IMG/VR virus record: IMGVR_UViG_3300047552_001097
Location: 1-64,000 of that record
DNA from: a virus
Strand: one strand, 5' to 3'
DNA length: 64,000 nt
Every line of letters begins with the position of its first letter. Position 1 is the stretch's first letter. The notes under the pieces are model-generated. The model was not told the DNA's origin and ran no database searches. It saw only the letters and a program-made list of their open reading frames with translations. Of this stretch, positions 3,831-25,081 are shown one piece after another. Position numbers and translations under genes: made by a program.

Positions 3831-3865
3831 ATATATAATATTAAAAGTAAACATAATAAAAAGCT

Positions 3866-4045: not shown

Positions 4046-4061
4046 GTTCTAATAAATATAG

Positions 4062-4082: not shown

Positions 4083-4127
4083 TTATACCTTTTATGTTAT
4101 ATTAATTAGATAAATATAGAGAATGAT

Positions 4128-4675: not shown

Positions 4676-4853
4676 TATTAACTTAATGATTAAGGGTAGA
4701 CCTGTTTCTTATATAGGGGCTAAGACGCTAGGAGGTTTAATTCTTACAGGTAGTAAAAGGTTATATATAAAAGGTAGACCAATAGCCCTTCATCTAGGTA
4801 AACTAACTAATGGTATAACTTTAGAGGGATGTTTTAATATAACAAGTGTATGA
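4599..4853 (+). CDS. PAAR-like tail spike tip protein
   Basis: At 84 aa it is the size of PAAR tip proteins such as T4 gp5.4, which cap and sharpen the central spike of contractile tails. The sequence shows repeated beta elements with the family feel: LEGSINLMIKGRPVSYIGA, LTGSKRLYIKGRPIALHLG and a final LEGCFNITSV, so the G-x-P-type loop (KGRP) occurs twice. Metal-binding histidines are not all obvious. The start at 4599 has an ATATG context, but an ATG at 4617 would shorten the overlap with the upstream gene. It is coupled to the next gene by ATGA. Confidence 0.65.
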   Translation: MKLVVCMGHRVLRTTPPMIGLVLEGSINLMIKGRPVSYIGAKTLGGLILTGSKRLYIKGRPIALHLGKLTNGITLEGCFNITSV

Positions 4854-5839
4854 ATTTAGATAATATAAGACAGTTTATTAAACAAGATGATGGTACAGAG
4901 TCTATACAAGATATAGAAAAACCAGAGTTTCCAGATATATCTAAAGGGTTTAATACTGCTTTTAAAGAGATGCACTACCCTCAAATAGATATGAAATGGG
5001 AGTATGGAAGTAATACTTTAGTAGGAGAAGAAATATGGGAAAGGTCTTTTACCACTCTTGAATTCTTACCTTCTACATCAATTAAAGAGGTTATTCAACC
5101 AGATATTGATGAGGAATATAAGACCAATTCCTTCTATTTAGTTAGATTCCCCTTTCTAGAATACGAATATAAAGCTACTAAACCCTTCTTTGAATGGGAT
5201 TTATCTGTTAATAAATACATACATGAAGAGCTGTTCTATCGTAAAAAGAGTAGTTCTATTAGATGGGATAGACCTTTTAATACTTATATAAACCCCAATT
5301 CTGATACTGAGATTAAGTATTATTTACCTTTAAGCCTCCCTTTTATTAAAGAGTTTGTACCTAATAAAGCTCTAGGATTTCAAGTAAGGTCTGATTCTAC
5401 CTTTGTAATAGAGAGTAATCAAATAGTTTATCCTTCTAATGAATTAATAACCCCAGCTATAGAGTCTCAATATAACATTACTTTCCCTTATATAAGTAAT
5501 CAAACTTATAGTAATTACATATCTATAAGACAGGATGGGGATTACCAGTATGAGGATTTATATCATTTAGTTAATGGTAATGCCTCTCCTACTTATATTG
5601 AAATAGACCTTTGGGGCCTTGATAAGATACCAAATAGTAAAAGGATCATACCCAATGGAGAAGATTATGAAAGACAAGAGATTCTTATACATCCATCTAA
5701 TACTCCATTAGAACAAAGGTTAAAGCCCCCTAATACTAATTTTGATGATAGTGGATTCTGGAATATGGAATCTCCAACTAACTATAAAGATATAGTCAAC
5801 TATTATGATAGAAAGAGTAAGGACTCTAGTTTAAGTTGA
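4850..5839 (+). CDS. Putative structural protein, 329 aa
   Basis: I do not recognise this protein. It is rich in Y, F, W, P and N, with no coiled coil, signal peptide or membrane segment, which is typical of a beta-rich virion protein. It is translationally coupled to the PAAR-like gene (ATGA overlap) and followed after 1 bp by the next gene. The context suggests a tail-tip or baseplate component; this is inference. Confidence 0.7.
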   Translation: MNLDNIRQFIKQDDGTESIQDIEKPEFPDISKGFNTAFKEMHYPQIDMKWEYGSNTLVGEEIWERSFTTLEFLPSTSIKEVIQPDIDEEYKTNSFYLVRFPFLEYEYKATKPFFEWDLSVNKYIHEELFYRKKSSSIRWDRPFNTYINPNSDTEIKYYLPLSLPFIKEFVPNKALGFQVRSDSTFVIESNQIVYPSNELITPAIESQYNITFPYISNQTYSNYISIRQDGDYQYEDLYHLVNGNASPTYIEIDLWGLDKIPNSKRIIPNGEDYERQEILIHPSNTPLEQRLKPPNTNFDDSGFWNMESPTNYKDIVNYYDRKSKDSSLS

Positions 5840-5840
5840 T

Positions 5841-6212
5841 ATGAAAGAGGATAAGATATTAAATTATTTAGTAATGGAGTTAAAAAGGACTCCTAAAGAG
5901 GTTCAAAGACTAGGGATTGAACTTCTCCTTTTAGAGGATTTAGATAGTATTAGACTACTAAGAAGGCGCTTAAATGATAGATTAAAGACCCCTATTAGTA
6001 GAAGTTATCTAAGTGAATTAAAGATAATGTATTATATGCTTGGCAATTATATTACAGAAGTAGAAGATATTGAAGATACAGCCCCTATAGATATACTAGA
6101 TTTTATTAAATCCTATGATAATCCTTTATCAATTGATGTCCAACCACCTAATGATTTACTCATGTCTAACTCAACAACCTATAGAGCTAGACTCCCTAAA
6201 AATACCAAATGA
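5841..6212 (+). CDS. Hypothetical protein, 123 aa
   Basis: The N-terminal two thirds is helical and charged (KEDKILNYLVMELKRTPKEV, LRRRLNDRLKTP). The middle is acidic (EVEDIEDTAPIDILDF). No family is recognised. The start follows the previous stop by 1 bp in a GATATG context. The last 98 bp overlap the 6115 frame, which is +1 relative to this one, so a frameshifted longer product is possible but no convincing slippery site was found. Confidence 0.65.
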   Translation: MKEDKILNYLVMELKRTPKEVQRLGIELLLLEDLDSIRLLRRRLNDRLKTPISRSYLSELKIMYYMLGNYITEVEDIEDTAPIDILDFIKSYDNPLSIDVQPPNDLLMSNSTTYRARLPKNTK

Positions 6213-6363
6213 TATTACTTATATACAACTAGTTATATCTATATTTAATAGAGAGGGGGACTTATTAGATTGTATAAGTGAGTATTTACCTAACTCTATA
6301 TCTGTAATAAGAAGTAAGGTAAAGGTGGTTTATAAGATGATAGAGAAGCTAGAACTAGACTAA
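6115..6363 (+). CDS. Hypothetical protein, up to 82 aa, start uncertain
   Basis: The part beyond the upstream gene (about residues 33-82) has normal composition (DITYIQLVISIFNREGDLLD, then a basic helical end), so this end is probably coding. The ATG at 6115 forces a 98-bp overlap with the 123-aa gene, and later ATG codons at 6136 and 6151 are alternatives. The 3' end overlaps the stop of the giant - strand gene by 9 bp. The function is unknown. Confidence 0.45.
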   Translation: MIILYQLMSNHLMIYSCLTQQPIELDSLKIPNDITYIQLVISIFNREGDLLDCISEYLPNSISVIRSKVKVVYKMIEKLELD

Positions 6364-9300
6364 ATCCTCATACTCAGAGTTATCTATAGTAAGTTCAACT
6401 ACAGAGTTGTTAGAGACCATAGCAAAGAGACCCTCTGGTACAGAGAATTCATTAGATATATAATCCCCTTCAAATATAGACTCACTAACTCTAACCATCT
6501 CCTCCCATTGAATAAACCCACCATCCTCACTATAGATATCTGGGTCATTAGTATCCTGCTCTGTACTATAAGCCTCTGATATAAGTTGCTCATCTATAGC
6601 CTCAATAGCTCTTTCTATAATAGTAAACTCTGATTGGTTATCTGTTATAGGTTGCATCATACTACCAGCTATACCTGCACCTACCATACCAAATAGTCCT
6701 GAGAGTACAGCACTAGTTATACTCTGAGCAGCTATCCTTTTACCGCCCATAGCATCATAATCTAGAGCTCCTTTATTACTATTAAATAGATATCTTAGTT
6801 TCTCATTAGAGGAAAGTTGACTAAGTTTAGCTTCTCTATACATCTGAGCTTTATATGAGCTTAGATGAGATAGAGACATCATAGAGTTAATAGCACTCTT
6901 CTCTACAAATGGAGCTACTACAGAAGCACCTAGAGTAAAACCTATTTCTCTAGCTGCTGCTAACCCTATAGCCTCACCTAAATCTCCATCTGTTTCACTA
7001 AGAGCCATATTAAGTTTAAAGGAGCCTCCTATCATAGACTTAGTTAACATAGCTTTAGGGTCTATACTAGTTCCCTTCTTACCGTAGGCTATAGAAAAGA
7101 TAGTACCCCCCACTATATTACCTATAGCGTCTGGGTTGATAGTCCCATTAATAACAGCACTACCTATAGTGGTTAGAGCTAGAGGTAATGCTAGTTCCAT
7201 AAAGTTATTAATGTTATTAAACTGTACTGCCTGGGATAGATTATTAAAATTAGGGGTAAGGGACTGGGCGTAAGCATTAGAACTACCTGTATCTACCTTG
7301 GTTCTAAGACTGGCTAGTTTATGCTGTCTATACTCTGATGTGGCTTTATTATATTGTCTCTCTATCTGTTCTATCTCTGTTATAGAGAGACCATGATTCT
7401 CTCCTAATAGAGCTTTAATAAAACTCTCTCCCTCTACATAAGAATCTATCTCCTCTTTTTTTCCATACATCTTAGTAAGGAACTCGTTAAGAGCCCTCCC
7501 TTTTGCCATAGAGGCAGTGGTCTCTAACTTATTTGATAGATACTTCTCTAGAGTGGTATTAATAGTATTACCATTTTCATCCTTATACTCCATACTAGAA
7601 CCAGACTCAATGGCATTAAATAGAGCTAGTCTAGATTGAAAGTCTTTCTTAGCTTCTTCCTCTGGCATGTTAGCTAGTTTGTATGCAAATGTATCAACTA
7701 TTTTTCCATTCTCCTTTTTAATACCAGTCATAAGGAGAGGGATATTTCCTTTAAAGTTAGTCTTTAAAAATTCATTAGAGGCAAAGGTATCCCATACAGC
7801 AGGTATAGCATGAGAGCTTAGTTTATTACTTCCAGCTAAATTAAGCATGGTATCCCATATATCAGCTCCTAGTAGTTCAGTATTAGAAGAGTTACCTCCC
7901 ATTAGGCTAATAGTTTTTTGTCTAGCTCCTTCCATATCTGTAAATCTACTTAACCCCTCTCCATATTTACCCATCATCTTATCGGTAAATTCTGTAGTAG
8001 TATTAATAATCTCTAACATACTAAGAACCTCTCTAGCTCCTCCTTTATTTGTATCTAGGTTTAAGTAATTAGATTTAATATCCTCTTCATTTTTATTAAA
8101 GATTCTAGATAGGATATGAAGGTTTCTAGAACCCTCTGCTGTATCTGAATTAAATCTTTTATTAATGAAATCTTGTATATCTTCTCCATTTACCTGGTCT
8201 CTATCCTTACCTAACTCCCTACTTATTATCCCTATATAACCAGAGAAGATGGTGTCTAAGAAGCTACTTTGTTCCCCTTTATCATATCCACTTGCTCCTG
8301 TAGTTATGTTATATCTATAGGCTATAACTAAGGATTCAAGGTCTCTCTTTACCTTTAAAGCTCCAATATCAAAGGCTGATATCTCCTCTTTATTACCAAA
8401 TGTATTAAGTTCTTGTACTAATCTTTCATATTGGGTGTTATCAATACTAAGGTCTGAGGCTAGAATCTGCTCATTCTTAGTAGAAGTAGCCCCTCCCCAG
8501 AAGGATGAAACTATTACCCCATTCATTAATTTAACTCTTCCATCCTCACTTAAGGTCTCTCTATTTCTCACTAAAGAGCCTAGTTGCATAAATACATCCA
8601 TACCAACATTAGAGCCAGAGGGACCGAACTTACCTGCTTCTCTAGTGATAAGAGCTCTTTGTTTATCTGGATTATCACTTAGGGACTCATATTCACTAGA
8701 TAGTCTCTCCATATTAGCTATGAAATCACCTCCAGCTTTAGGTTTAATTCCATCTCTTAATAGTTGGTTTATGCTTTTTATAAAGGCTAGGATTCCCTCT
8801 CCTGTATCACTATTTCTCTTAATAGAGGATACAAAGTCCTCTTCTTTTATCCCTTGAGAATTATAGAAATCATTATCTCTAAGGAACTGTTTAGTAGATT
8901 CCTCTTGAATAATAGAGGATAGAGCTAGTAAAGGACTCTCTTGATATAAAGTTCCTACAAAGGTGTTATAGGTTTTACCTAGTACATCACCCCCAGCTTT
9001 ACCCATAATCTTAACCATCATGTCATAACCAGTAAGAGACATATTAACCCCTGCCCCCTGTCCTAATATAGATTGAAGACTACTTACACTCTTTAATCTA
9101 GCTGCATATAAACCACTAGCCCTAGCTAATATCTCCTCCTCTTGTTCCTTAGATATAGAAGTAGAGTTAGGGGCAATAGATTGTATAGATTTGTACATAA
9201 GATCTAATAAATCCTTCTGAGCCTCCTCTCCCATAAGTAATATACCTAGATAAGTATTTCTATTAGCATTAGTCTCATCTTGGGCTAATACCTTTAATCT

Positions 9301-12300
9301 ATCTTGTAATAAATGAAACCCAGAATGGGCATTAGATACAGAAGCTAGATAGCTAAATAAAGACATATTAGGACCATTATTACCAGTAGTAGGTATACCT
9401 GTTTGTTGCTTAGATAAAACAGTAGTCTCTGTATTTATAAAGACATCCTTAAGGATGCTATTCACTTTCTTAATAGAAGAGCCCGTACCCCCTAATCCCC
9501 CAAATAGACCTCTACCCTGTTCTATAAAAGTAAGAGCTACATTCATACTTATATCATTCTGTTGAAAACCTTCTGGTCCTCCTAAGAAATGTTCTACTCT
9601 TATACCTAGGTAGTTAGCCACCTCTTTCTTAACAGCTTTACTAAAAGAGGAACTTTCTAATTGATTTCTCCAGGTGTATAACTTAGCCTTATTATTAGCT
9701 ATCCTTACTTTATGTTCCTCTATCTCACTCTTAAGGATATGAACCCTAGTCTTTTCTTCTTTTATACCTTCTTCTAAAGCCAATCTATCTTCATATGAGG
9801 ATAAGGGACCTAGACCCCCTACTTTATTATCAATGCTAGTATCTAGAGCCCTTATTCTAGCCTCTGTAGTCTTAATCATAATACTGTCACTCTCTATAGA
9901 CCTTTGTAGGTCCATAAACTGACTAAAGATAGTAGTATAGGGGTCCCCATCAAAGTCCCCTATATTCATAGTTAAAAGGGATATGGGGGATAGTAGAGAT
10001 AATCCTTTATTCCTTTCCTCATCGTATTGAACCATAGAATCCTGTCCTATAGCTTGATTAAGTAGAGATATATCTTGTATAACAGTAAGAGCCATTCTTT
10101 GTTGTTCACTACCTCCAATGGGGGGACTTCTAAATCCTAAGACTTCAATACTATCTCTCATGTCTAGATGGTTCATCATTTTTTCCATTAGAGCTATAGA
10201 GTTAGATAAAAGACTTTCATTAAGAGTTAGTTTATATTTATTTACTACTTGTCCTTTAACTACTCTAGACTCTGTAACAGCTAGCTTAGGGTTTATATTT
10301 AATAAAGAATATATATTTATATCTGGGTCAATAGATTTAAATATCCTTTCTAGAGCTTTAAGGGATGTGTCATTAATAGATTGGGTCTTAACTATCTTTC
10401 TAAGTATGGCTAGCCCACTAGATAAATCATCTAGTCCCTGTTTATTCTTATTAAGCATATCTATTTGAGATTCTGAGTTCTTAAAGGTATCTCTAGCCCT
10501 TCTACTAAACTCTTGACTTACTGAACTAGAGCTCTTAATATACTCTCCTAGAGCTGTCTCTATAACTATAGCCTTCTCCTTAATATCAGATATACCCCCT
10601 AGGTATTTATGCTCATCAAAGGAGAAACTTTTAGTTTTTTTATAAGTACCTTCTAAAGATTCAATAGTTTGAAGTAATCCAGGTTTATCTTTAGTACCCT
10701 CCAAATGTTGATAAATAGAACTATATTCCTCTTTAAATCTTTGATTCGATTGAGGTATAATATTCTCGAATCTATATTGAATATAAGCCAATTTCATTTT
10801 TATTGGCTCATAGGTAATATTTTCATTGGCCTCTATATATTTTTGATGTTCTTCTATAGCATTACCTTCTTTATCTTTTCCAAACCATTTAGGAACTTTA
10901 ATACTATCTATATCCTTATATAGAGTTTCTAGTTCACCCTCAGATAGAGATGGGTTCTCTAGTTTAAGTTGAGATATAACTAGTTCTTGTTTTCTCTTTT
11001 TAAGTTCATCTAATTGATTTTTAGTATCAGCTTGATAGGTAGTAAATATATTTCTTATAGCTTCTTTAAACAGCTTAATTTCTTTACCTATATTAAGAAC
11101 TTTATCCTTTAGACTTCTATGTTGAGAAATTATAGAACTCCTTTGTTCTAGTAGAGTAGTTTTTCTTACTTCTATTAGTTTATTAATAGAGAGGGTTATA
11201 GATTCTTCTAACTCTCTTAATTGATTAAGTTCAGAGTGATACTCTATAGAGTTTCCAGGATGAATTTGCTTTTTAAACTCTTGTATCTCACTTCTTATAT
11301 TGGCTCTATTAATCTCTAAAGATTCTATTAGTCTAGTAAACTCTCTTTTTTCAATAGATTTATCTATTCCTATATCTCTAAGAAATAAAGAAGCGGCTTT
11401 CTCTTCTCTTATAATTATTTCTTTATACTTGGATATAGACTTAGATAAACCCTGGATAGAGGATTTAGTATCTACTTCACCTAATCTACTTTGTATTTCT
11501 TTTATAGCTTTACCATTAATCTCATCATATTTAGATTTAAGTTCCTTTTCTCTAGACATTAGATAAGTAATAACAGGGGAGTACCTATCTAAACTAGATA
11601 ATCCTTCTATAGAATTTATCCTAGTAGATAAGTGTTCTATTTCTCCATCTAACTTTTTAATTTGAAGCTCTAATGGACTTTCATATTCACTAATCTCTTG
11701 AGTAAGAGCTAATTGCTTTCTTTCTAATTTAGCTTTATACTCTGTTAAATCAGCCCATTCACTATCGGCTATCTCTTCATAAGGAGCTATCTTTAAGAAA
11801 TAAAGTCTATTTTCTAATTCCCTCTCTTCTAATAAAAGTCTAGAAGAGTCTTGTTTATACTCTTTAACTTTGTATAAATGATTAAGTTTATTTTTTACTT
11901 CTGTATATTCTTTATCTATTTTGTTAATATATTCTGTACTATGAATTCCTAAGTGTATATTTCTCTTAATCTTAGATAAGATTTCTAATCTAGATTTATA
12001 ACTAGAAATATCTTCTTCTAGAATTCTATAGCCATTGGAACTTGGATTTAAACCCATCCAAGGAGGAGTTTCCAAAGCACTTCTATCATATATTTTTATA
12101 CTACTTTTAATTTTATTTATATATTTTAATCTACTTTCAATTTCTCTAGAGTATTGGTATATAAGTCTTTTAGTAGTACCTAGCCAAGTTTCTCCTTCTA
12201 ATTCACTTATAGTTCTATTAACATATTTATGTTCTTCTTCAAGTTCTTGTTGTATAGATTCTAGTTTCTTTATATCTCTTTCTCTAATTTCCTCGTCCCT

Positions 12301-15300
12301 TTTTTTAGCTTCTGGTGAGGATAGAAACTCTATAGTAGCATTTCTATATTTCATTTCGAGTTCACTTAATTCTAGTTGTTTACTCTCTAAGGAATTATAT
12401 CTACTACCATAATCATCTAGATAAACACTCTTAGAAGTAGAGTCTATACTCTGTTGAATACTAGTTCTAGCTCTATTTAATCTATTTAACTCATTCTCTA
12501 AATCACTTATAGAGTTATTACTATACTCATTTCTACTTTTATCTAGTTCTTTCCTTAATACTATAGAGGTAGAATCACTAGGTTTAATGTCTGGAAATAA
12601 TTCTCTACCTACTAAACTATTCTGTTCTAGAGTTATATTGGCTCTCTTTATATATAGTTCTTGTTCTACTTTTCTAATTCTATCTTCTATTTGTTGTAGA
12701 TTATTACCATGAATTAGTAAATCTTCATTATTAGGTCTAACCATTATAGTTCCACTTTTACCCTCTTCTTTAGCCTTTTGTATCTGTTCTATAAGGTTTA
12801 TTTGTTCTTCTCTTAATTTAATTAATCTATTCTTATCATCTCTAATAGAATTTAACTCCTCACTTATTCCAATTAAGGAGGAGATTCTATCTCTTTCTAG
12901 TTCTAATATCTTAACCTTACTCTTTATATAACCATCTTCTAAATCAATATCCTTAGAGTTCTTTATTAAATCTAGTTCATATTCCAATTTAGATAAGTTA
13001 TCTCTAGTGGGTCTCATCCCCTTAACCTTACTTTCTTGTAGCTTTAATCTATAGATAATACTATCTGAACTATCGATTTCTTCTATAGTTCTTTCTATAT
13101 AATGAATCTCTTTATTAACATCTGATAGGTTACTACTATATATTCCTCTAATAAAAGAGGCTATTCTCTTAACTGTTTTATTATCTGGAACTATCTTACT
13201 TAATGATTTACCTTCTTCTACTATCTTAGTTAATCTAGTTCTTTCACTATTTAATTCTTTAATCCTTTCATTAATAAGGGTTTTATCTATACCCTCACTA
13301 GCTCTTTTAAGACTTAATAGCTCTAATCTCTGTTTATTTAAACTCTCAACTTGGCTTTCTATATCAACTAAATAGCTATTTAGATAATCCAAACTACTAG
13401 ATATATCAAAGCTACCACTCTTTTCTAGAGCCTTAAAACTATTTAATATACTAGATAACTCCTCTCTTTTATTTATTAAAGAAGGGAGACTGTTTATTTG
13501 ATTAATCTTTCTAGATAATGAATCTGGGTCATTACCACTAGAATTAATTCTTTGTAATTCATTTAAATCTCTTAACTCCCTATTTATCTCTCTAAAGGTA
13601 GGAGCATATGCTTCAATATGGCTCTGAACTCTCTTATAATATTCACTGAACAATACAGATACTGGTATAGAATCCACCCCAGTAGCTACTTGTAAAACCC
13701 TTCTTATATTACCTAGTTCCAATTGATTAGCTTTACTTAATCTCTCTTTAAATATAGAACTAGCCTCATTTACTAGTTTTAATACTTCTTCTGGGAGATT
13801 ATAATAAAGGTCTTCTTGTATAGATGGAAATATGGAATAATCAACTAGATTACTTTGAAATATAGAGAAGAATATATTTAAATCCATACCTGCTGGACCA
13901 CTAACTCTATTATTAATGTCTAGAGTCATCTTATATAAGAACTCGGAAGGGATATTATATCTGTATTCATTATTTAAGAAAGGCTTAGTTGTCTTCTCAT
14001 AAACTATACCTTTATTCGTCTTAATCCTATTTATTTCATCTTCTAATACCTCTAGTTCTATAAGAAAGATTCCCTCTTTATATACTTTAGAACCCTCACT
14101 TAATCTTTTCCATTTATTGAATTTAGTCTTATCTCTTTTATATGCCTTATTTTCCTCTATATCTCCTTCCACTAATCCGCTTCTTTTTATCCTTTCAGCC
14201 TCTAGTTTAGCTAGTTCTACAGCTAAAGAATCTCCCTGATTCTTACCTATTTGTATATTAGATAGGAGTTCAAGTCTAGATAAAAGGCTATTAGCCTGTC
14301 TATTAAGGGGTTCTATAACAGCAGTATCTTCTTGGTTTATACTCCCTAACTTACCAATAAGAGAGTCCACTTCTTTCTTTATAGTTAGAACTTCATCAAT
14401 ATACGACATACCTAAAGGAGAAAGTCCCCCTCTAACTGCTAATAAAGCTGCTCTAATAACATTCTGTTCCTTATAAGAGCTACTAGAATTACCTATATTC
14501 TCTAGTAAACTAACTAATTCATAACGTTCAGGACTAGCACTAGTATATCTATTAAGAGCCTCTTTAGCTAATAGAATACTACCATTAGGTATTAACCAAG
14601 AAGCTGCTGATGAGGTTACAGCTCCACTATGTCTAGTTTTAAATCCAATAGCAGCTTGAGCTCTAGTACCAGCACTAGCCTCTGCCATAAGATTAACTAT
14701 ACCCTGGTCTCCAAAAGCATAGGAGTAGAACTTCTTAAGTAGTATAAGTTCTTCTTTATCTAGTTCAATAACACCTGTACCTTCTTCCTTAGCTCTAACA
14801 ATCTTATCTCTAACATTAGACATAGCAGTACCAGGAGCAAAGGCACTAGCTAGAAATATGGTTCTACTTACTATCTCATCAATATAAGAACCATAGGCAT
14901 CACCTAATCCTTTAAGTTCAGCTCCACTCATAAGATAACTATAATACTTCTGACTATAGTCCAGCTCTAGTCTTACCTTACCCCCTATGTCATTACTACT
15001 ATCCTCTGACATATATATCTGAGGAAGACTAAAGGCAAAGCTCTTATAGTTTAACTGGTCTAGTATAGGGGATACAGAACCAGCTCCAAAGGGTTTATCA
15101 CTATGTAATTGATAGTACCTACTTATATCTAATAACCTTCTAGAACTTATATTATCTAATAAAGTAAGAGCCCCAGTTATATCAAATCCAGACCCCATCT
15201 TATCTTTCATATCTACAATAATCCCTCTTATAGCCTCATTCTCTGATGGGTTATAGGTCATTAATTGATTAATCTTTTCTATGGTATCTATCCTACTCTC

Positions 15301-18300
15301 AGGTGTAAGGTTATTACTATCTAGCTCCTTTATTAATATATTAACTACATTATTTACTAGAGCTCCATATGACTCATAGTCCTTCTTATATTGATTTAAA
15401 TAGGCTGTAGTCCTAGCATCTACCCCAGCATATATACCTAAGAACTTACTCTTATGTAATTGAGAACCTAGTCTTATATCTGATATGTCATATACTTTTT
15501 TATCTATCCAATCTCTATCCCTTATATCCCCACTTACACTATGTAAAGTTGCACTATCTGATACAACAGATAACATATTAGCAACTATAGTTCTTAATGA
15601 GGATATAGACCCTTGTTCTTGGAAGGATGAACTTACTTGCATAAGGGGTTTAAGTAAGTGCTGATATTCCAGAGCTCCTGTAGACTTAGAACCTATAGAC
15701 TCCTTACTCTCAGAGGCTAGTAGGTCTGTGAATAATCTTATAACTGTAGATTGAGTAGTAAATCCTCTTACCATAGCTCTAACAGCATTAAGATAATCTA
15801 AAGATTCCTTCTCCTCTTTATCTAAAGATGTTAATGACCTTTTCTCTAATAGAGAACCCCTCTCTAGTTTATTAAGGTCCACATCCCCCATAATAGAAGC
15901 TATTTGTTTAATAATTTCATTGTTATTAAAATCTATTTCTGTAGGTATGGTTATGCCATCATTATCATATTTAGATAGTTGGGCTATAAGGTCTAGGGAA
16001 CCAGCTAGTATAGAAGCCTCTCTTTCAAAGGGGTTATCTATTCTAATAAACTCTCTACCCACTAGACCTTTACCTTCTCCTAGATCTGATACTAGTTTTC
16101 TCTCTAACCATGAAGTGATATAATTAATACCCTCTTGTTCCCCTTTAGCTGCTTTAAGTAACATCTGAGAATCTAGTAGAGCTAAGGAAGGTGTCTGTTG
16201 AGTATTAAACAATCCCTTTGTCTTAGATACTAGAGCATTACCAAACATAGAACCAAACTTAGTTCTTATATCTTGGTACTTGTGGTAATTAGGGTCACTA
16301 TCATTGAATATGGCATTTATAGCAGTATCAAAGTCCCCTAATCCAGTAATAGCTCCTACTAATTCAGAGGACCCGTTTAAATGACTAATAACAGTTCCTA
16401 GAGCCTGATTCCTAAAGAAGGAACCCATTTCCCCTTTAATACTAGATTCAAATAGAATCGTATTAATATCCTTCTTTACATCAGAATCCATCCACTCATT
16501 ACCAAAGGCTAGGGCTAAGGATAGTAATAGTTTATTCCCTTTCTTATTAGATATAGTATTAGGATTAAACTCACTTATAAGAGAACGTAATAGCTGTTCG
16601 TTTCTTACTATATGGGAACCATGAGAATAGAAATGACTCTTTAAGTTAGTGGGGTTAAAAAGACCAAATATAGAGCCCACATCTACTTTTGTATATCCAT
16701 CCTGAGTCTTATTGAATTGGGCAGCTAGATAGGAGAAGAAGTCCATGTTTTGATATCTACTATCTTTAATATCCAGGAAGTCAGTGGATGTGAATTTAAG
16801 TACAGCCTTAGCTAGAGTACCAATACCCTCAACTCTTCTACCCCCCTCTAGAATAAAGGAGCGGTTATATACCATTTCCCATATAAGCTGGTTATTATCA
16901 GCATTACCTGTTAATTGTTTAGAGCTTACTAGATATTCTATAGAGTTAGCTGCATTCCTATGCCAAGTCTGTCTATCTAATCTAGAGACATTAGGTAAAT
17001 CATCTATAGTTCTAAAGTTATCTATTACTCCATTAAGGAATGCCACCTGGTCCCTAGAGTCTACCATTGATTTAAGGACATAATGTCCAGACTCTCTATC
17101 TAAAGAATAATACTTATTAAACTCTGTACCTAATACTGCTTGTTTAAGAGTAGATAAAACATCCTTTGATTGATTAATAAGCTCAATAGATTGTTTAACT
17201 CCACTAGTTGTTTCACTTATTAACTCACTAGAGTTACCCCATACTAGAACTCTATTAGTATCAGTATCAAAGGTTATGATATCTCCTTTACGGGCTAGTA
17301 GTTTACCATTAGAGACCCAATCCTCTGATAGTTTAGAGGACTTCTGTTTCTTCTCTGCTTTCTCTATAAAGCCACTCATAGTTCTAATCTTAGACATAAC
17401 CTCCACTCTTTCATTTAGAGGTATGTTCTTATAGCCTTTATATTGTTTTATTAAAGAATGTAACTCTTTAATGTCATCATTACTTCCACCATATAGGGGG
17501 TTGGCATAGGCATAATCACTAAAGTCTCCAGTTAGTTGAACTAATATAACTGGATTAAGTCCTTCTGTTGTACCAGTAAACCCCTTGGTTCCAGAGGCTA
17601 AACTATCAGCACTTCTCGCTCTATATAACAACATAAAGCGAGCTAATGAAATGTCCCCTCTTCTATATTCAAAGTCTTCTTCTTTAAATCCAAAGTCTTC
17701 TTTTAACTCTTCTTTAGCTTGTTCTACTATAGATGCTAACTCACTGGTCATAACCCCTCTAAATCCACTAGCATTTATAATTCCAATACTTAAGTCCTCA
17801 CCTAAGTAACTCTCAGCTTTAAGATATAGATGATTTAGTTTATGTAATATAGTTTGTTTAGATTGATTATTTAATCCTTTTGTTCTATCTATAGCTATTT
17901 CTATTAGTCTATTAAAGGAGTAAAGTCCTATATTATCTTCTTGAACTACTATTTTCAGATTATCCAGGACCTTCTTTGTATTAGTATCTATACCAGAATT
18001 TGTAGTGTTAAGTCTATTAAATAGGGTTTCTACTACTTGAACTTTAATATTTAGACTTCTCTTTTCTATAATATTATTAACATTACCCTTTGTTAAAAGG
18101 GCATAGGATATTTCTTTATCTATTTCATACATACCCCTAGTTCCTAGTTTATTCTTCATTCTTTGGGGTACTTGACTAACTTTCTTAGCAACATTATAAG
18201 TATAAGTAACTATTTCATCACTATATTTAAAGCCACTTCCATCAATAATTCTTTCATATTTACTATCAATCTTTTGGATAAGACTAGATTCAAAGGTACT

Positions 18301-21300
18301 TTTACCCCCCTTTCTTCTATTTCTATATTCATTTAATCTATTAACCATAGCTTCTATACTATGAATCTCTTCATTATATAGAGCTACTTTATACTCATTA
18401 TAGATAGATTCAAAGATATATCTATCAAACTCATCTCTTTTAGTTACATATCCGACCCCACCATATTTAGCAAACTCTACTAAAGCTATATCTCCTATAG
18501 GAGTTTTCTTAATTCCATGTATAGATAAACCCCCTTCTTCTATACTTTCACTTATAGAACCACCTTCTGCTACACCTCTAATAGCTCCTTCTGTACCCTT
18601 ACCAGTAGTATCTGAAGGACCAAATATATAAGGTTGGGCTATAGCAAATCTAAATATATTGCTTATACCATCCCCTCTTTTCTTTAAATTACTAAGGAAA
18701 ACTCTTTGAGACCTATTAATTCCATATAAAGGAGTTTTGAATTCAGCCTGGTTATCTGTATAAGTAGATACCTGTTTCTGTGTAATAAAGGGTTCTAGTA
18801 GTCCAGCTTTAACTAACTTAATGGCATTAATAAAGCTATCATCGTACATAAATTCCCTTCTACTCTCTATAATTCCAAGAGCAATGTCTGATTGAAATGT
18901 ATGTATATCCCCTATTCCCATACTTAAATCGAACCCTTCTCTTATACTTTCTATAACAGCTTCCTTACTAAAGAGTAGTTGTCTCTTATTAGATTCAGAT
19001 AAATTACTATCTTTAAGAGCTCTATTAATAGTTCTAATAGCTTGTAATCCTTTAATAACCCTAGTTCTTATATCTAAGTCATTAGAGTTATCTACTAATT
19101 GATATGACATAAGGGAAGAACTCTTAAGCTGAGAGACTATATCCTCTCCCCCTCTAAGGTTTAAAGAGGCTTTAAATGAGCCACTAATACCTATTCCATG
19201 TCTCTGTTCAAACTTTGTTATTAAATTAGTTATCTCTATATCTGATAGGGAACTAGACCTTAAGAAGTCTCCAGCTATGCCATTATATCTAGATACTCTC
19301 CCATAAGTTAAATACTCTAGATAATCTAACCCAGCTTTACCTAACATACTATTACCCTGAACATTCTCCTTTTTACTTAGAGACCTCATATAATGCAAAG
19401 GTTGAGTTATTAAAGCTCTATAAGTCATCTCCCCAGCTAAAGAAGATATAACGTTAGAAAATGTTTCTATAGGTGTTAGTAATAAACTCTCCCTGCTCTT
19501 TAATGGTTTATATTGAAGACTATAAGAACCATCATCTCTCCTAGTAAAGGAATCTTTACCATAAGGAAGATTTATAGTCTCTTCTTGATTATTAATAAAT
19601 AGACTTTTACCTACTAGCTTATTCTGGTCTATAAGATATATAAACCCACTTTTATTATTTAATCCCCCTTTTAAAGCTGTAACTCTAAAGGAGGAATTAT
19701 TATATGTAACCCCAGCTTTATGTCCACTTATTAATGAACCTGCATTAATATCTACCTGTATACTTATTAGTTCTCCATGTTGACCATAAGATTTCTTTAT
19801 AGATATACCTTCCCCTTTACCTAGTCCCATTTCTTTATTAAGGGCTTCTAGTCTAGCTATAAGAGTGTTAAGAGAAGCTCTATCCACTTTATTAGTCCAT
19901 GAGGCTTTACTAGAGGATAGAGAACTATCTACATTACCTACTTTAGTTCTAGTTAATCTAAACCACTCTCTTTCTAGGTGTTGACCCTCTGAGGCTTTAA
20001 AGTCCTCCATCTCCTCTGACATACTATCTTTACTTCTATATAGAGTCCCCTCTCTTTCACCATATCTCCTCATATCTCTAGCTAGATTAATAATACCCAC
20101 TTCCCCACTAGTAGTATCATCCCCTACATCAAAGGCTAAGGAGGAACTACCAAAGTTAGATGAACCTTGTATAGCTCCTATATGTTTAAAGGAATCATCC
20201 TCCCCTCTATACCTTTGTATGGCAAATATATTCTTTACATGACTCATAGTCTCTGTAACCTCTATAATATTCCCACTAGTTATAGCTAGTATCTGAAGGG
20301 CTGTTCTATAACTAGACTCACTACTTACCTTATTATAGAATCTGGATAATTTATCTCTAGGGTCAATGAATTTATCTATAGATACTCCATAGTTAACTCC
20401 CCCTTTATCTAATCCTAAAAGATTAATAAGGGCTTTAGAGTCTCTATTTACTGCATTAGTAAGAGTTCTTAGAGAACTACTGTATCTATCTTCAAATACC
20501 TTAGAACCTAATCTAACAGTAGATTCATAATCTAGGGAGGTGTTCTCCATTCTACCTAGGAGATAACTAACTTTCTCTATAGTAGGTTCTAGAACTTTAT
20601 CTCTATAGTTTCTAATATCAACAGAGACATAGGCTCTTCCCTTATTAACTAGCTCAAAGAACTTATATTGAATCTCACTTCTATAGATAGAGTCTCGGTT
20701 ATTACCTTTATTCCTTATTAAGAATGTTTCTATAGGTATAGTTCTAGATTTACCAGAGGGACCAAACTCTCCACTATAATCCCCTTTCTTACCATAATAG
20801 ATATCATCATCTAGTTGAAGGAGCCATACCTGGTTAAGGTTAGCGTATAGTTCTATAGGTTTATCATATGTAGATTTACTAGAAGCATATTTAATCATAG
20901 TCCTAAGTCCCTGTCCTATATCCCCGGCATTACCTATTTGATTACCAGTAACAGCTCTTCTAGTTTTAATCTCATTAAGAGCTATCATCCTAGCTTGGAG
21001 GTATAGATGTGTATCTATATACTCCTGTTTCTTCTCCTTTGTCATAGAACTAGAGAAGGAGCTTCTTATATCTAAAGCTGTTCTTTTAACTCCATCCATA
21101 TCTGGAATATAGTAGCTAGATGAATTAGGATTTATTCTATCTAGTCTATTATGAAGAATGATTACTTCTTCATAGTTAGACCCTGCTACTGAAGGACTAT
21201 TACCTACTGGAGAAGTTAAGTTAAAGGAGCCTAACATAGCAAACTTCTCAGTAGTATATAACTTAGGGTGATAGCTGCCACTATCTATAAACTCTAGGTT

Positions 21301-22473
21301 CATATTAGGTAGATAGTTAGCTATAGTGTTATTTATATTACCTGGTGATGTAAGAGTCTCTACATCATTAACTCCTAGGGATATAAGTTTCTCTTTAACA
21401 ATATCCTTTTGAACTCTATAAATCCTTTCCATAATAATAATATTAGGGCCAAGGATTTGATGACCCACCATATTAGCATTACTTCCATTAGAGGGGGCAG
21501 CTAGTCTAATACTAAACTTAAAGTCTCCAGAGGCTATTCTACTAGATTCCCTCTGTAGTTTAGATACTAGTACATCAGATATAGTCTTATTCTGAAGTTG
21601 AAATAGGTCTATAGTTAGTTCTTTATCGGCACTTTCTATAAAAGCAATAGCCATTCTCACACCGGGTTTATATACATAATCACTCTTATCTAGTAACCTA
21701 GTGGAGAAATCTTTGACATAAGAAGTAGATGTAGTAAACCCATAATCCATCCTTTTTAATAGAATCTCTGGATCTGTTCTTATTAATTCATCATGTATCT
21801 TGTTAACTCTATTAGTAACTTGATACTCTTCTCCAGTTAATAAGTGATTTAAAACCCATCTTCCCTTAGCCATTCCATCTAAATCATTAATATTAGGATT
21901 CTCTTTTAGTATCTTAAGACCCCCATATATGTTCTTATTAACTTCATTACTAACTACTTCAGTAGTGTCATGGTCAAATAAATATCTATATGCAACACTG
22001 GAAGTATACCTTTCATACTCTATTCGGCGCTTATCCTTTTCCTTCTCAGATAGAGTTGACTCAAAGAAACCATCATTTAATCCAATATTAAACTCTCCAG
22101 TTATACGATTAATGGCCTTTATCCCACTAGTTGATAGGTTGTATAAATCACTTGAAAAGGCAGAGAATGCGTTTCTAGCTAGAGCTCTAGCTGCTTCTTC
22201 ATATACATCTACCTTATCCTGTAGAATATCCTGTTTAACAACTTGTTTTATATAATCCCTTCTTTGAACCTCTTCCTTCTCTGTGTAATAACCCCTATAG
22301 TTCTTACTAGAACTTACTCCAAAATCCTGATTATATTTATCATCATATTGTTCATTAAAAAGGAAATGGGTATTAATAGTATCTTTTAAATGGTCTCTTA
22401 TTCCTTTCTCATAGAAAGAACCACTTAATATTCTATTATCTGTAGGGTTATTACTCCAATTAGGATAGTGCAT
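6355..22473 (-). CDS. Giant 5,372-aa protein: PLD-like enzyme, coiled coil, candidate single-chain RNA polymerase
   Basis: One uninterrupted frame covers a quarter of the window. Residues about 265-800 carry two phospholipase D/nuclease half-sites: HPK at 402-404 with GSFN at 415-418 and later acidic residues, then HVK at 745-747 with GSSN at 770-773. Residues about 2960-4020 are almost continuous coiled coil rich in E, K, L, I and S. At 4173-4177 lies DFDGD in the context NIGDFDGDPY, preceded by GFRSPPIGG. This resembles the catalytic loop and upstream R-x-P element of RNA polymerase beta-prime/YonO/crAss-like enzymes. A possible beta-like basic element, GFKTRHSG, is at 2610-2617. Hydrophobic stretches occur near 5090-5130, 5170-5190 and 5250-5275. 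I infer a virion protein ejected into the host. A tape measure is the alternative, because the tail assembly chaperone gene is next door. Existence of the gene is certain; the polymerase role is moderately supported. Confidence 0.93.
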   Translation of the reverse strand: MHYPNWSNNPTDNRILSGSFYEKGIRDHLKDTINTHFLFNEQYDDKYNQDFGVSSSKNYRGYYTEKEEVQRRDYIKQVVKQDILQDKVDVYEEAARALARNAFSAFSSDLYNLSTSGIKAINRITGEFNIGLNDGFFESTLSEKEKDKRRIEYERYTSSVAYRYLFDHDTTEVVSNEVNKNIYGGLKILKENPNINDLDGMAKGRWVLNHLLTGEEYQVTNRVNKIHDELIRTDPEILLKRMDYGFTTSTSYVKDFSTRLLDKSDYVYKPGVRMAIAFIESADKELTIDLFQLQNKTISDVLVSKLQRESSRIASGDFKFSIRLAAPSNGSNANMVGHQILGPNIIIMERIYRVQKDIVKEKLISLGVNDVETLTSPGNINNTIANYLPNMNLEFIDSGSYHPKLYTTEKFAMLGSFNLTSPVGNSPSVAGSNYEEVIILHNRLDRINPNSSSYYIPDMDGVKRTALDIRSSFSSSMTKEKKQEYIDTHLYLQARMIALNEIKTRRAVTGNQIGNAGDIGQGLRTMIKYASSKSTYDKPIELYANLNQVWLLQLDDDIYYGKKGDYSGEFGPSGKSRTIPIETFLIRNKGNNRDSIYRSEIQYKFFELVNKGRAYVSVDIRNYRDKVLEPTIEKVSYLLGRMENTSLDYESTVRLGSKVFEDRYSSSLRTLTNAVNRDSKALINLLGLDKGGVNYGVSIDKFIDPRDKLSRFYNKVSSESSYRTALQILAITSGNIIEVTETMSHVKNIFAIQRYRGEDDSFKHIGAIQGSSNFGSSSLAFDVGDDTTSGEVGIINLARDMRRYGEREGTLYRSKDSMSEEMEDFKASEGQHLEREWFRLTRTKVGNVDSSLSSSKASWTNKVDRASLNTLIARLEALNKEMGLGKGEGISIKKSYGQHGELISIQVDINAGSLISGHKAGVTYNNSSFRVTALKGGLNNKSGFIYLIDQNKLVGKSLFINNQEETINLPYGKDSFTRRDDGSYSLQYKPLKSRESLLLTPIETFSNVISSLAGEMTYRALITQPLHYMRSLSKKENVQGNSMLGKAGLDYLEYLTYGRVSRYNGIAGDFLRSSSLSDIEITNLITKFEQRHGIGISGSFKASLNLRGGEDIVSQLKSSSLMSYQLVDNSNDLDIRTRVIKGLQAIRTINRALKDSNLSESNKRQLLFSKEAVIESIREGFDLSMGIGDIHTFQSDIALGIIESRREFMYDDSFINAIKLVKAGLLEPFITQKQVSTYTDNQAEFKTPLYGINRSQRVFLSNLKKRGDGISNIFRFAIAQPYIFGPSDTTGKGTEGAIRGVAEGGSISESIEEGGLSIHGIKKTPIGDIALVEFAKYGGVGYVTKRDEFDRYIFESIYNEYKVALYNEEIHSIEAMVNRLNEYRNRRKGGKSTFESSLIQKIDSKYERIIDGSGFKYSDEIVTYTYNVAKKVSQVPQRMKNKLGTRGMYEIDKEISYALLTKGNVNNIIEKRSLNIKVQVVETLFNRLNTTNSGIDTNTKKVLDNLKIVVQEDNIGLYSFNRLIEIAIDRTKGLNNQSKQTILHKLNHLYLKAESYLGEDLSIGIINASGFRGVMTSELASIVEQAKEELKEDFGFKEEDFEYRRGDISLARFMLLYRARSADSLASGTKGFTGTTEGLNPVILVQLTGDFSDYAYANPLYGGSNDDIKELHSLIKQYKGYKNIPLNERVEVMSKIRTMSGFIEKAEKKQKSSKLSEDWVSNGKLLARKGDIITFDTDTNRVLVWGNSSELISETTSGVKQSIELINQSKDVLSTLKQAVLGTEFNKYYSLDRESGHYVLKSMVDSRDQVAFLNGVIDNFRTIDDLPNVSRLDRQTWHRNAANSIEYLVSSKQLTGNADNNQLIWEMVYNRSFILEGGRRVEGIGTLAKAVLKFTSTDFLDIKDSRYQNMDFFSYLAAQFNKTQDGYTKVDVGSIFGLFNPTNLKSHFYSHGSHIVRNEQLLRSLISEFNPNTISNKKGNKLLLSLALAFGNEWMDSDVKKDINTILFESSIKGEMGSFFRNQALGTVISHLNGSSELVGAITGLGDFDTAINAIFNDSDPNYHKYQDIRTKFGSMFGNALVSKTKGLFNTQQTPSLALLDSQMLLKAAKGEQEGINYITSWLERKLVSDLGEGKGLVGREFIRIDNPFEREASILAGSLDLIAQLSKYDNDGITIPTEIDFNNNEIIKQIASIMGDVDLNKLERGSLLEKRSLTSLDKEEKESLDYLNAVRAMVRGFTTQSTVIRLFTDLLASESKESIGSKSTGALEYQHLLKPLMQVSSSFQEQGSISSLRTIVANMLSVVSDSATLHSVSGDIRDRDWIDKKVYDISDIRLGSQLHKSKFLGIYAGVDARTTAYLNQYKKDYESYGALVNNVVNILIKELDSNNLTPESRIDTIEKINQLMTYNPSENEAIRGIIVDMKDKMGSGFDITGALTLLDNISSRRLLDISRYYQLHSDKPFGAGSVSPILDQLNYKSFAFSLPQIYMSEDSSNDIGGKVRLELDYSQKYYSYLMSGAELKGLGDAYGSYIDEIVSRTIFLASAFAPGTAMSNVRDKIVRAKEEGTGVIELDKEELILLKKFYSYAFGDQGIVNLMAEASAGTRAQAAIGFKTRHSGAVTSSAASWLIPNGSILLAKEALNRYTSASPERYELVSLLENIGNSSSSYKEQNVIRAALLAVRGGLSPLGMSYIDEVLTIKKEVDSLIGKLGSINQEDTAVIEPLNRQANSLLSRLELLSNIQIGKNQGDSLAVELAKLEAERIKRSGLVEGDIEENKAYKRDKTKFNKWKRLSEGSKVYKEGIFLIELEVLEDEINRIKTNKGIVYEKTTKPFLNNEYRYNIPSEFLYKMTLDINNRVSGPAGMDLNIFFSIFQSNLVDYSIFPSIQEDLYYNLPEEVLKLVNEASSIFKERLSKANQLELGNIRRVLQVATGVDSIPVSVLFSEYYKRVQSHIEAYAPTFREINRELRDLNELQRINSSGNDPDSLSRKINQINSLPSLINKREELSSILNSFKALEKSGSFDISSSLDYLNSYLVDIESQVESLNKQRLELLSLKRASEGIDKTLINERIKELNSERTRLTKIVEEGKSLSKIVPDNKTVKRIASFIRGIYSSNLSDVNKEIHYIERTIEEIDSSDSIIYRLKLQESKVKGMRPTRDNLSKLEYELDLIKNSKDIDLEDGYIKSKVKILELERDRISSLIGISEELNSIRDDKNRLIKLREEQINLIEQIQKAKEEGKSGTIMVRPNNEDLLIHGNNLQQIEDRIRKVEQELYIKRANITLEQNSLVGRELFPDIKPSDSTSIVLRKELDKSRNEYSNNSISDLENELNRLNRARTSIQQSIDSTSKSVYLDDYGSRYNSLESKQLELSELEMKYRNATIEFLSSPEAKKRDEEIRERDIKKLESIQQELEEEHKYVNRTISELEGETWLGTTKRLIYQYSREIESRLKYINKIKSSIKIYDRSALETPPWMGLNPSSNGYRILEEDISSYKSRLEILSKIKRNIHLGIHSTEYINKIDKEYTEVKNKLNHLYKVKEYKQDSSRLLLEERELENRLYFLKIAPYEEIADSEWADLTEYKAKLERKQLALTQEISEYESPLELQIKKLDGEIEHLSTRINSIEGLSSLDRYSPVITYLMSREKELKSKYDEINGKAIKEIQSRLGEVDTKSSIQGLSKSISKYKEIIIREEKAASLFLRDIGIDKSIEKREFTRLIESLEINRANIRSEIQEFKKQIHPGNSIEYHSELNQLRELEESITLSINKLIEVRKTTLLEQRSSIISQHRSLKDKVLNIGKEIKLFKEAIRNIFTTYQADTKNQLDELKKRKQELVISQLKLENPSLSEGELETLYKDIDSIKVPKWFGKDKEGNAIEEHQKYIEANENITYEPIKMKLAYIQYRFENIIPQSNQRFKEEYSSIYQHLEGTKDKPGLLQTIESLEGTYKKTKSFSFDEHKYLGGISDIKEKAIVIETALGEYIKSSSSVSQEFSRRARDTFKNSESQIDMLNKNKQGLDDLSSGLAILRKIVKTQSINDTSLKALERIFKSIDPDINIYSLLNINPKLAVTESRVVKGQVVNKYKLTLNESLLSNSIALMEKMMNHLDMRDSIEVLGFRSPPIGGSEQQRMALTVIQDISLLNQAIGQDSMVQYDEERNKGLSLLSPISLLTMNIGDFDGDPYTTIFSQFMDLQRSIESDSIMIKTTEARIRALDTSIDNKVGGLGPLSSYEDRLALEEGIKEEKTRVHILKSEIEEHKVRIANNKAKLYTWRNQLESSSFSKAVKKEVANYLGIRVEHFLGGPEGFQQNDISMNVALTFIEQGRGLFGGLGGTGSSIKKVNSILKDVFINTETTVLSKQQTGIPTTGNNGPNMSLFSYLASVSNAHSGFHLLQDRLKVLAQDETNANRNTYLGILLMGEEAQKDLLDLMYKSIQSIAPNSTSISKEQEEEILARASGLYAARLKSVSSLQSILGQGAGVNMSLTGYDMMVKIMGKAGGDVLGKTYNTFVGTLYQESPLLALSSIIQEESTKQFLRDNDFYNSQGIKEEDFVSSIKRNSDTGEGILAFIKSINQLLRDGIKPKAGGDFIANMERLSSEYESLSDNPDKQRALITREAGKFGPSGSNVGMDVFMQLGSLVRNRETLSEDGRVKLMNGVIVSSFWGGATSTKNEQILASDLSIDNTQYERLVQELNTFGNKEEISAFDIGALKVKRDLESLVIAYRYNITTGASGYDKGEQSSFLDTIFSGYIGIISRELGKDRDQVNGEDIQDFINKRFNSDTAEGSRNLHILSRIFNKNEEDIKSNYLNLDTNKGGAREVLSMLEIINTTTEFTDKMMGKYGEGLSRFTDMEGARQKTISLMGGNSSNTELLGADIWDTMLNLAGSNKLSSHAIPAVWDTFASNEFLKTNFKGNIPLLMTGIKKENGKIVDTFAYKLANMPEEEAKKDFQSRLALFNAIESGSSMEYKDENGNTINTTLEKYLSNKLETTASMAKGRALNEFLTKMYGKKEEIDSYVEGESFIKALLGENHGLSITEIEQIERQYNKATSEYRQHKLASLRTKVDTGSSNAYAQSLTPNFNNLSQAVQFNNINNFMELALPLALTTIGSAVINGTINPDAIGNIVGGTIFSIAYGKKGTSIDPKAMLTKSMIGGSFKLNMALSETDGDLGEAIGLAAAREIGFTLGASVVAPFVEKSAINSMMSLSHLSSYKAQMYREAKLSQLSSNEKLRYLFNSNKGALDYDAMGGKRIAAQSITSAVLSGLFGMVGAGIAGSMMQPITDNQSEFTIIERAIEAIDEQLISEAYSTEQDTNDPDIYSEDGGFIQWEEMVRVSESIFEGDYISNEFSVPEGLFAMVSNNSVVELTIDNSEYEDLV

Positions 22474-22725: not shown

Positions 22726-23166
22726 ATGAACACATTAAGTAATGTAGCTTTAGGTCCTTTTGAGTTACCCTCTGGAAAGGTAATTACGTTTAGAACTTTA
22801 TCTTTTAAAGAAAGAAGAGAATTGCTTTCTAAGTGGCAGAAGAATGATGGTAGAACCCAAGGTTATCTTCTAGAAGAATATTTTATGGCTGCTGCTTTAG
22901 TAACAGAGGATAATCAAGGAGTTATTGATGAGTATCAATCTTCAGATGGTTATATTGCTAGACTTGACCATTGGTCAATGAAAGATACCTCTTATTATAT
23001 GGAAGCCTTTATTATCATTAATGGTGTAGGTGAGAGAGAAAGACCTAATATTGAGGCAGAGGTAAAAAAAATACTTGGGGTTACTCCAGGTACACCCTTA
23101 CCCCCTCCCCCACCCGTTTCTCAGGAGAGTACCTCCTCTCTACCCAAAGGGCTAAAGATTATGTAA
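22726..23166 (+). CDS. Tail assembly chaperone, short form
   Basis: The N-terminus has the look of phage tail assembly chaperones: FELPSGKVITFRTLSFKERR near residues 12-32, then a helical domain that usually binds the tape measure and tube. After residue 113 the frame crosses an A AAA AAA heptamer and continues to a Pro-rich tail ending at 23166. The short form (146 aa) is the unshifted product. The gene lies between the giant - strand gene and the portal gene, not in the usual place between tube and tape measure. The start has an ATAAATATG context. Confidence 0.72.
   Translation: MNTLSNVALGPFELPSGKVITFRTLSFKERRELLSKWQKNDGRTQGYLLEEYFMAAALVTEDNQGVIDEYQSSDGYIARLDHWSMKDTSYYMEAFIIINGVGERERPNIEAEVKKILGVTPGTPLPPPPPVSQESTSSLPKGLKIM
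23064..23070 (+). promoter_or_regulatory. -1 ribosomal frameshift slippery site A AAA AAA
   Basis: The chaperone frame reads GTA AAA AAA ATA, so the heptamer A AAA AAA is correctly phased for a -1 slip. The -1 frame has a stop at 23052-23054, just before the site, and is then open to 23694. This is the classic layout of the lambda G/GT type. A stimulatory structure downstream was not worked out; the C-rich stretch at 23100-23115 may pair with later G-runs. Confidence 0.75.
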
Positions 23167-23696
23167 TTCCTCCCATCCAAGTATGGGGAGTATTAGATGT
23201 TTATTATTCATATGAACTAAATAATCTATCTACATTATTCCCCACACCTTTAATGCCTATAGCTCCACTATTATATATAGGGTTAAAAGAAAGATATCTT
23301 ATTAATATACCTATAGATACATTAAGTAGAGCTATAGATAGTCTAAGATTTATTCCTCCTTCCTATGCCGGTTCTTTATACTATGACCCTAATATCCCTT
23401 ATTACTTTAGTTTATTAGTTGATGCTATTTCCACTAATATAGTAGAGCAGACTCAACTAGATAACTGGATAAGAATATGTCAAGTATGTCCTCTACCCTT
23501 ATTTCAAGATATAGCTTATTTAGAGTTAGATATCTTTTGGAGTACAGCTATAGCTAAGGCGGTAGATAGTTATGTTAGAGAGCAGAATAAGAAACAGGAT
23601 GAAGTAATGAAGAATCTAGAGAAGAAGTTAATTAAAGAGGATATACCTACAAGTAACTTTAATCACATACCCATGCCCAAGAATTATGGAATGTAA
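23070..23696 (+). CDS. Tail assembly chaperone, -1 frameshift extension
   Basis: This segment is translated as the C-terminal part of a fusion with the 22726 gene after a -1 slip at 23064-23070. The -1 frame codes about 208 residues (PPIQVWGVLDVYYSYELN, then a helical domain and a charged tail EQNKKQDEVMKNLEKKL). An internal ATG at 23253 would give a separate 147-aa protein, but the open frame extends well upstream of it and overlaps the first gene through the Pro-rich stretch, which fits frameshifting better. The fused form would recruit tail tube subunits to the tape measure. The portal gene follows 6 bp later. Confidence 0.7.
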   Translation, partial: NTWGYSRYTLTPSPTRFSGEYLLSTQRAKDYVIPPIQVWGVLDVYYSYELNNLSTLFPTPLMPIAPLLYIGLKERYLINIPIDTLSRAIDSLRFIPPSYAGSLYYDPNIPYYFSLLVDAISTNIVEQTQLDNWIRICQVCPLPLFQDIAYLELDIFWSTAIAKAVDSYVREQNKKQDEVMKNLEKKLIKEDIPTSNFNHIPMPKNYGM

Positions 23697-23702
23697 ATAA
23701 AT

Positions 23703-25079: not shown

Positions 25080-25081
25080 AG

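Follow-up and report, generated by a model that had tools for sequence, protein, structure and literature searches.

A giant cysteine-free protein encoded beside the structural operon of a myovirus: a candidate virion-ejected RNA polymerase with a PLD domain

The window analysed here comprises bases 1-64000 of a 171,917-base virus record. One quarter of it (16,119 of 64,000 bases, 25%) is taken up by a single minus strand frame at 6355-22473, which runs from an ATG to a stop codon without any internal stop and shows a structured codon-position GC content (42/35/22%). The uninterrupted frame of 5,372 codons described in an earlier sequence-only reading is thus confirmed. To its right the genome continues with an operon of myovirus structural genes, namely those for the portal, the head maturation protease, the major head protein, the tail sheath and the baseplate wedge. 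The same reading had called the gene opposite to all its neighbours. This is true only locally, because both immediate flanks (3041-6363 and 22726-26104) are plus strand, whereas a smaller minus strand ORF lies at 26106-26525 and minus strand genes start again left of 3010. The landmarks of the locus are:

6355-22473, minus strand: giant ORF (ATG start, 5372 aa plus stop), candidate virion-ejected polymerase with PLD domain
22726-23166, plus strand: 146-aa gene, a conserved neighbour of the giant and portal genes (synteny; PHROG 32670, unknown function)
23703-25079, plus strand: portal protein (PHROG 113), marker of the structural operon beside the giant gene

The product of the 146-aa gene, which is conserved in most relatives, could be a loading or connector protein. 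In the tail region an 878-aa protein (39936-42572) has, by eye, the look of a serine beta-lactamase or peptidase, and a Microcoleus phage gene from the corresponding part of the operon carries a beta-lactamase family annotation. Between the baseplate and fibre genes the ORF at 54989-56095 resembles, again by eye, an FAD/NAD-dependent oxidoreductase (GAGPRGIGLA start).

Of 50,697 phage records searched with tblastn, only those of Microcystis phages (Ma-LMM01 and the MaMV group) and of Microcoleus phage My-WqHQDG contained relatives of the giant protein; the matched genes there are annotated as “hypothetical protein”. The window phage is related to the cyanobacterial phage Ma-LMM01, in which the counterpart of the giant protein is gp080 (3562 aa; PHROG 31006, a hypothetical protein with no assigned function), which is colinear with the window protein save for an insert of about 1.3 kaa, in whose place gp080 has about 150 aa. 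Alignment-based scans of IMG/VR yielded further relatives of 3.4-4.8 kaa, and across these an N-terminal block, block 1 and the C block recur in that order. A pattern scan of genome contigs returned 92 pattern stretches with no relative among them, and a single-protein query against viral contigs returned no match. Since colinear relatives of 3.5-4.8 kaa share the block order, the giant ORF is no fusion artefact, and the sequencing error that the earlier reading had itself considered can be ruled out. Sequence searches of Pfam, PHROGs and PDB gave no named function beyond PHROG 31006 (function unknown) and weak PLD matches. The parts of the protein are arranged as follows:

20101-21270, minus strand: N-terminal PLD-type active site with two HKD motifs (nine residues unchanged in all 14 relatives aligned)
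14512-16218, minus strand: conserved block 1 (aa 2086-2654; profile matches), candidate place of a second, lysine-bearing barrel
10393-14361, minus strand: charged, leucine-rich, helix-type insert of ~1.3 kaa (aa about 2705-4027; comparison with gp080)
8401-10392, minus strand: conserved C block (aa 4028-4691; profile matches in 16 of the 16 sequences given), candidate polymerase catalytic block
7138-7206, minus strand: hydrophobic segment 1 near the C-terminus (aa 5090-5112; hydropathy scan)
6655-6735, minus strand: hydrophobic Gly/Ala-rich segment 2 near the C-terminus (aa 5247-5273; hydropathy scan)

The block 1 profile matches 15 of the 16 sequences given (L055 did not score), and its conserved lysines K2257 (13/13) and K2460 (12/13) might be the two basic residues that the second barrel contributes in two-barrel RNA polymerases. 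Family length is variable (about 3.1-5.4 kaa), and an outer ring of relatives with the catalytic motifs is formed by L033/L073, L038/L072, L039/L071, L055 and L084. In L051 two ORFs take the place of the giant gene, one with the PLD part (L051:2333-6745, 1471 aa, 0 Cys) and one that is polymerase-like (L051:6749-13441, 2231 aa), which suggests that the two parts are separable modules. The giant gene adjoins the portal gene in most relatives. Among 15 loci examined, ten had the 146-aa neighbour; relative to it the giant gene is opposite in seven and on the same strand in three. Opposite orientation is therefore not a family trait, and antisense orientation was rejected as a functional clue.

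The N-terminal domain carries HKD1 (H402-x-K404..N418..E435) and HKD2 (H745-x-K747..S771,N773..E791). Two HxK..(G)SxN motifs in one chain, by which the PLD superfamily is recognised, are thus present, and H, K and N of both are invariant in all 14 relatives. Pfam PLDc_2 matches nine of 14 members (best 7.6e-8); the window protein scored 0.019, under the curated cut-off. The nearest PDB profile matches to the PLD part, all of them weak, include the PLD-type nucleases virion nicking-joining enzyme (E 0.032) and PLD4 (0.26), and our guess would be that this domain, too, is a nuclease.

Not a single cysteine is found in the 5372 aa of the giant protein. The 21 other window ORFs of at least 200 aa contain 9.39 Cys per 1000 residues, from which 50.5 would be expected (P about 1e-22 if residues are independent); two very Cys-rich neighbours inflate this expectation, and without them some 30 Cys would still be expected. 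The opposite extreme within the window is a 1174-aa protein at 51426-54950 with 32 Cys. TGT and TGC are missing from the reading frame of the giant gene, whereas each of the five remaining frames contains 35 to 136 of them; avoidance of Cys codons is therefore a property of the protein and not of the DNA. The whole family (19 members) has one Cys in 71,648 aa, located at residue 21 of the Ma-LMM01 protein before its second Met. For this count L010 and L013 (near-identical to LMM01) were left out, L071-L073 replaced the shorter L039, L038 and L033, and L002, L048 and L051 (partial or split) were among the rows dropped beforehand; ORFs were trimmed to the first Met where this was found within 100 aa.

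Known ejected proteins free of Cys include the N4 vRNAP gp50 (0/3500), P23-45 gp96 (0/5002), and T7 gp15 (0/747) and gp16 (0/1318), the latter two being ejected proteins but not polymerases. Cys is present in T7 gp14 (1/196) and in phi14:2 gp65-gp67 (1-2 each), and a lack of Cys is also seen outside the ejected proteins (N4 MCP, 0/401). The earlier suggestion of a virion-packaged ejected protein gains support from the family-wide Cys absence and the portal-adjacent position in most relatives, and we consider it most likely that the giant gene encodes an ejected virion enzyme. The lack of Cys would fit a passage through the tail in the unfolded state. A zero-cysteine rule is also a cheap way to find ejected giant proteins.

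Within the C block the following polymerase-type motifs were identified:

10114-10131, minus strand: R4115-S-P-P-I-G4120, counterpart of YRxPxxG (crAss RNAP) and FRNPVMG (P23-45 gp96)
9943-9957, minus strand: D4173-F-D-G-D4177, candidate metal-binding DxDxD triad (D, D, G, D invariant 17/17)
8932-9024, minus strand: G/A/N-rich helix (aa 4484-4514), candidate bridge helix (conserved G/A/G/N columns)
8737-8766, minus strand: Q4570-L-L-R4573-D-G-I-K4577-P-K4579, candidate trigger-loop helix (Q, R, D, K, K invariant 17/17)

In an alignment of 17 very diverged relatives (A5; 13-32% identity to the first row), R..P.G, D-x-D-G-D, two helix Gly and Q-x-x-R-D-x-[IL]-K-x-K are all that stays invariant or nearly so. 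The R column is not listed among the invariants of alignment A6, and the strict R.P..G pattern fails in family members with RSAP or RAGP. The second position of DxDGD is F, or Y (L050) or W (L052), with all three Asp unchanged, as would be expected of a DxDxD site. The bridge-like helix, which is one long predicted helix (aa 4484-4514) in a low-confidence AlphaFold2 model, and R-D-x-I-K follow DxDxD in two-barrel RNAP order, as matched by eye. The order RxPxxG, DxDxD, R-x-x-x-K/H of the family is also that of P23-45 gp96 (741, 779 and 1101) and phi14:2 gp66 (1322, 1361 and 1634), and the trigger-like R-x-x-x-K/H spacing is shared (QSATRSLVK at 1101 in gp96, MLIRAGVH at 1634 in gp66). Truncation results reported for gp96, in which 1-1050 was inactive and 1-1200 active (PMC10770324), are consistent with a needed element near 1101. 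RxP together with DxDxD is found in eight of nine crAss RNAP sequences examined. The distance between RxPxxG and DxDxD is 58 aa in the window protein versus 38-39 in gp96 and gp66. Among 1038 ORFs drawn from 69 sources, only the family, gp66 and gp96 contain the pattern R.P..G.{20,90}D.D.D (shuffle mean 0.6). This test is partly circular for the family loci, most of which were fetched through DFDGD; the circularity does not extend to gp66, to gp96 or to the RxPxxG half.

Using hhalign, the family profile matched the gp96 group with a score of 35.1 (E 0.0014), in register across both motifs. As a yardstick, crAss versus gp96 scored 33.4 (E 0.0024) and 36.8 in the two directions; controls reached at most 18.7 (40 column shuffles) and 17.3 (four decoy profiles from other conserved blocks). 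Similarity of the family to the crAss profile (eight of nine sequences; L077, a piece without DxDxD, was left out) is weak (21.9, E 0.1; shuffles up to 18.0). The test is less powerful when single sequences serve as templates: gp96 scored 27.8, with 0 of 217 real decoys as high (best 27.5), but aligned outside the motif, and TSP4 (24.8) and gp66 (18.0) were equalled by three and 23 decoys, respectively; the other DFDGD proteins L044 and L085 scored 38.9 and 36.2. Block 1 showed no similarity to the gp96 region upstream of the RxP motif (13.7, shuffles up to 21.3), so the second barrel stays a candidate and a homology of block 1 to that of gp96 is not supported by our data. PDB profile searches gave no RNAP match, and Pfam revealed no RNAP domain in the giant protein and no PF00623 in its own record. 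AlphaFold2 models of a compact relative (L008, aa 1840-3039) and of the window C block (aa 4007-4634), built from 20 and 19 sequences, contain no barrel in either case; pTM was 0.33 and 0.29, confidence was low in the part that spans RxPxxG and DxDGD, and Foldseek with the first model found no match at E<=0.001.

Our analysis makes it moderately probable that the giant ORF encodes a packaged and ejected single-chain two-barrel virion RNA polymerase with a PLD domain. The polymerase assignment draws on the motifs and one profile comparison, and the two-barrel fold has the standing of a candidate. A two-HKD PLD phosphodiesterase (aa ~260-900) would precede the RNA polymerase part (aa ~2086-4691), with the Gly-rich hydrophobic segments at the C-terminal end. 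The protein would be loaded into the procapsid, pass portal and tail unfolded together with the DNA, and refold in the cell; we propose that Cys is excluded because of this unfolded passage and subsequent refolding. The polymerase might then transcribe the first phage genes before or beside the host RNAP, and the PLD domain might cut a phosphodiester, in host nucleic acid or lipid, during takeover.

A possible, though clearly less probable, scenario is a giant internal virion protein that is likewise ejected and aids DNA entry or takeover by means of its PLD and helical, membrane-active parts, with DxDGD as some other metal site or as the relic of a decayed polymerase without RNA synthesis. 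Neither the Cys absence nor the PLD residues require a polymerase, T7 gp15 and gp16 are Cys-free and ejected without being one, and both AlphaFold2 models are without a barrel. This scenario is, however, at odds with the way in which RxPxxG, DxDGD and the bridge-like and trigger-like residues are conserved together over long distances and follow one another as in validated RNAPs, the acidic ones staying invariant at 13-32% identity, and with a similarity to the gp96 profile that equals the one between validated RNAP families.

An intracellular polymerase or nuclease, made during infection and never packaged, would suit a giant gene that is often transcribed apart from the structural operon. 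We nevertheless judge it improbable given the conserved position beside the portal gene and the total Cys exclusion over tens of kilo-residues, unlike in a second DFDGD protein with many Cys that was detected in two of eight records tested (G001 and G002; 18 Cys in 1880 aa and 29 in 2669 aa examined). Both records also carry a Cys-free giant of the family (2/2). In G002, first fetched for its other DFDGD protein, this is a relative of ~3.05 kaa with QQIIRDSLKPK and no Cys after the first Met. This find bore out a prediction of family membership and speaks for the virion polymerase reading; the search for it was begun only once the pattern search had turned up a second site in G002. Large Cys-bearing DFDGD proteins of the second type are located at L085:1341-6980 and L044:1-8007 (VRAPMTR..SPFxQYFNxGDFDGDG). 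No Pfam or PHROG match was obtained for the L085-type protein, and its naming as a candidate non-virion polymerase is therefore a conjecture; the window's own record holds no homologue of the L044-type protein.

A tape measure, also proposed in the sequence-only reading, would account for great length and predicted helices, and P23-45 gp96 is reported as a tape measure fused to a vRNAP (PMC10770324). The length of relatives varies widely (about 3.1-5.4 kaa), transcription of the gene often leads away from the structural genes next to it, and its orientation beside head genes is variable. Catalytic residues of the PLD and polymerase types are present in the family, and the expected tape measure place is occupied by a 1041-aa ORF at 45909-49034 (position only; no family match). 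A tape measure is thus very unlikely. The chance that DxDGD is a calcium-binding loop in a structural protein is slighter still: EF-hand, dockerin and FG-GAP loops do begin with DxDGD, and one unrelated pattern match, L018, resembles such a loop (NLGDFDGDGDVDIEDI), but these loops need G after the third D, where the family has P, T, N, Q, S, V, A or M and never G, and the EF-hand/dockerin reading was rejected. A HAD reading of DxDGD was rejected on motif context only.

If true, the virion polymerase reading would add a branch to the two-barrel polymerases with a new domain partner (PLD). Chances are about even that a widespread, unrecognised class exists of single-chain two-barrel virion RNAPs (~3-5.4 kaa, Cys-free, mostly PLD-fused) whose carriers are cyanophages of the Ma-LMM01 kind as well as other large phages; in part of these phages it would be accompanied by a Cys-bearing DFDGD protein that might be a non-virion polymerase. 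The candidate matters as phages of the Ma-LMM01 group were previously described without an RNA polymerase of their own. MaMV-DH01 is stated to lack an RNA polymerase and to rely on host transcription (PMC9927357). For Ma-LMM01, promoter predictions led to host SigA-type/sigma70 being inferred for all expression classes, while the account given there leaves the origin of the three classes open (PMC5780444); these predictions point to host RNAP and count against a virion polymerase. In the open-licence papers that our literature searches listed, no title or opening of an abstract describes such an enzyme for Ma-LMM01-like phages. The window's own record contains, outside the window, a 329-aa frame with a sigma70 region-2 match (E 6e-20; G000:C1:142697-142906, minus strand). 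The phage thus seems to have a sigma factor of its own, in contrast to the published account of Ma-LMM01, and host RNAP is therefore probably used at some stage of infection. A candidate virion polymerase in phages of the Ma-LMM01/MaMV-DH01 type makes the question of the expression classes directly testable.

Among known systems, gp080 of Ma-LMM01 belongs to the same family, being colinear and of the same synteny, and is ~1.8 kaa shorter, mostly by the helix-type insert. The crAss-like phi14:2 gp66 and its relatives share with the giant protein the order RxPxxG..DxDxD, large size and a minus strand gene beside structural genes; gp66 differs in having DFDID instead of DFDGD, two Cys and a weak profile similarity (E 0.1), and we know of no PLD domain in gp66 and its relatives. 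Escherichia phage N4 gp50 (3500 aa), which is ejected, is likewise giant, Cys-free and encoded on the strand opposite to the preceding genes. Its catalytic domain, in contrast, is of the T7/N4 (RRM palm) type, a class treated as separate from the two-barrel enzymes (PMC7824862). Thermus phage P23-45 gp96, described as a tail tape measure fused to a virion RNAP and with membrane segments reported (PMC10770324), resembles the giant protein in its size (5002 aa), its freedom from Cys and its succession of RxPxxG, DFDGD and R-x-x-x-K. In gp96 the RNAP is N-terminal, with the tape measure and a metallopeptidase behind, whereas in the window protein the PLD domain is N-terminal and the RNAP-like block C-terminal, with no tape measure part evident; the contractile tail of the window phage (sheath in the operon) is a further difference from P23-45. 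The co-occurrence of a giant with a second DFDGD protein, finally, resembles the pair of virion and non-virion RNAPs reported for P23-45 (PMC10770324).
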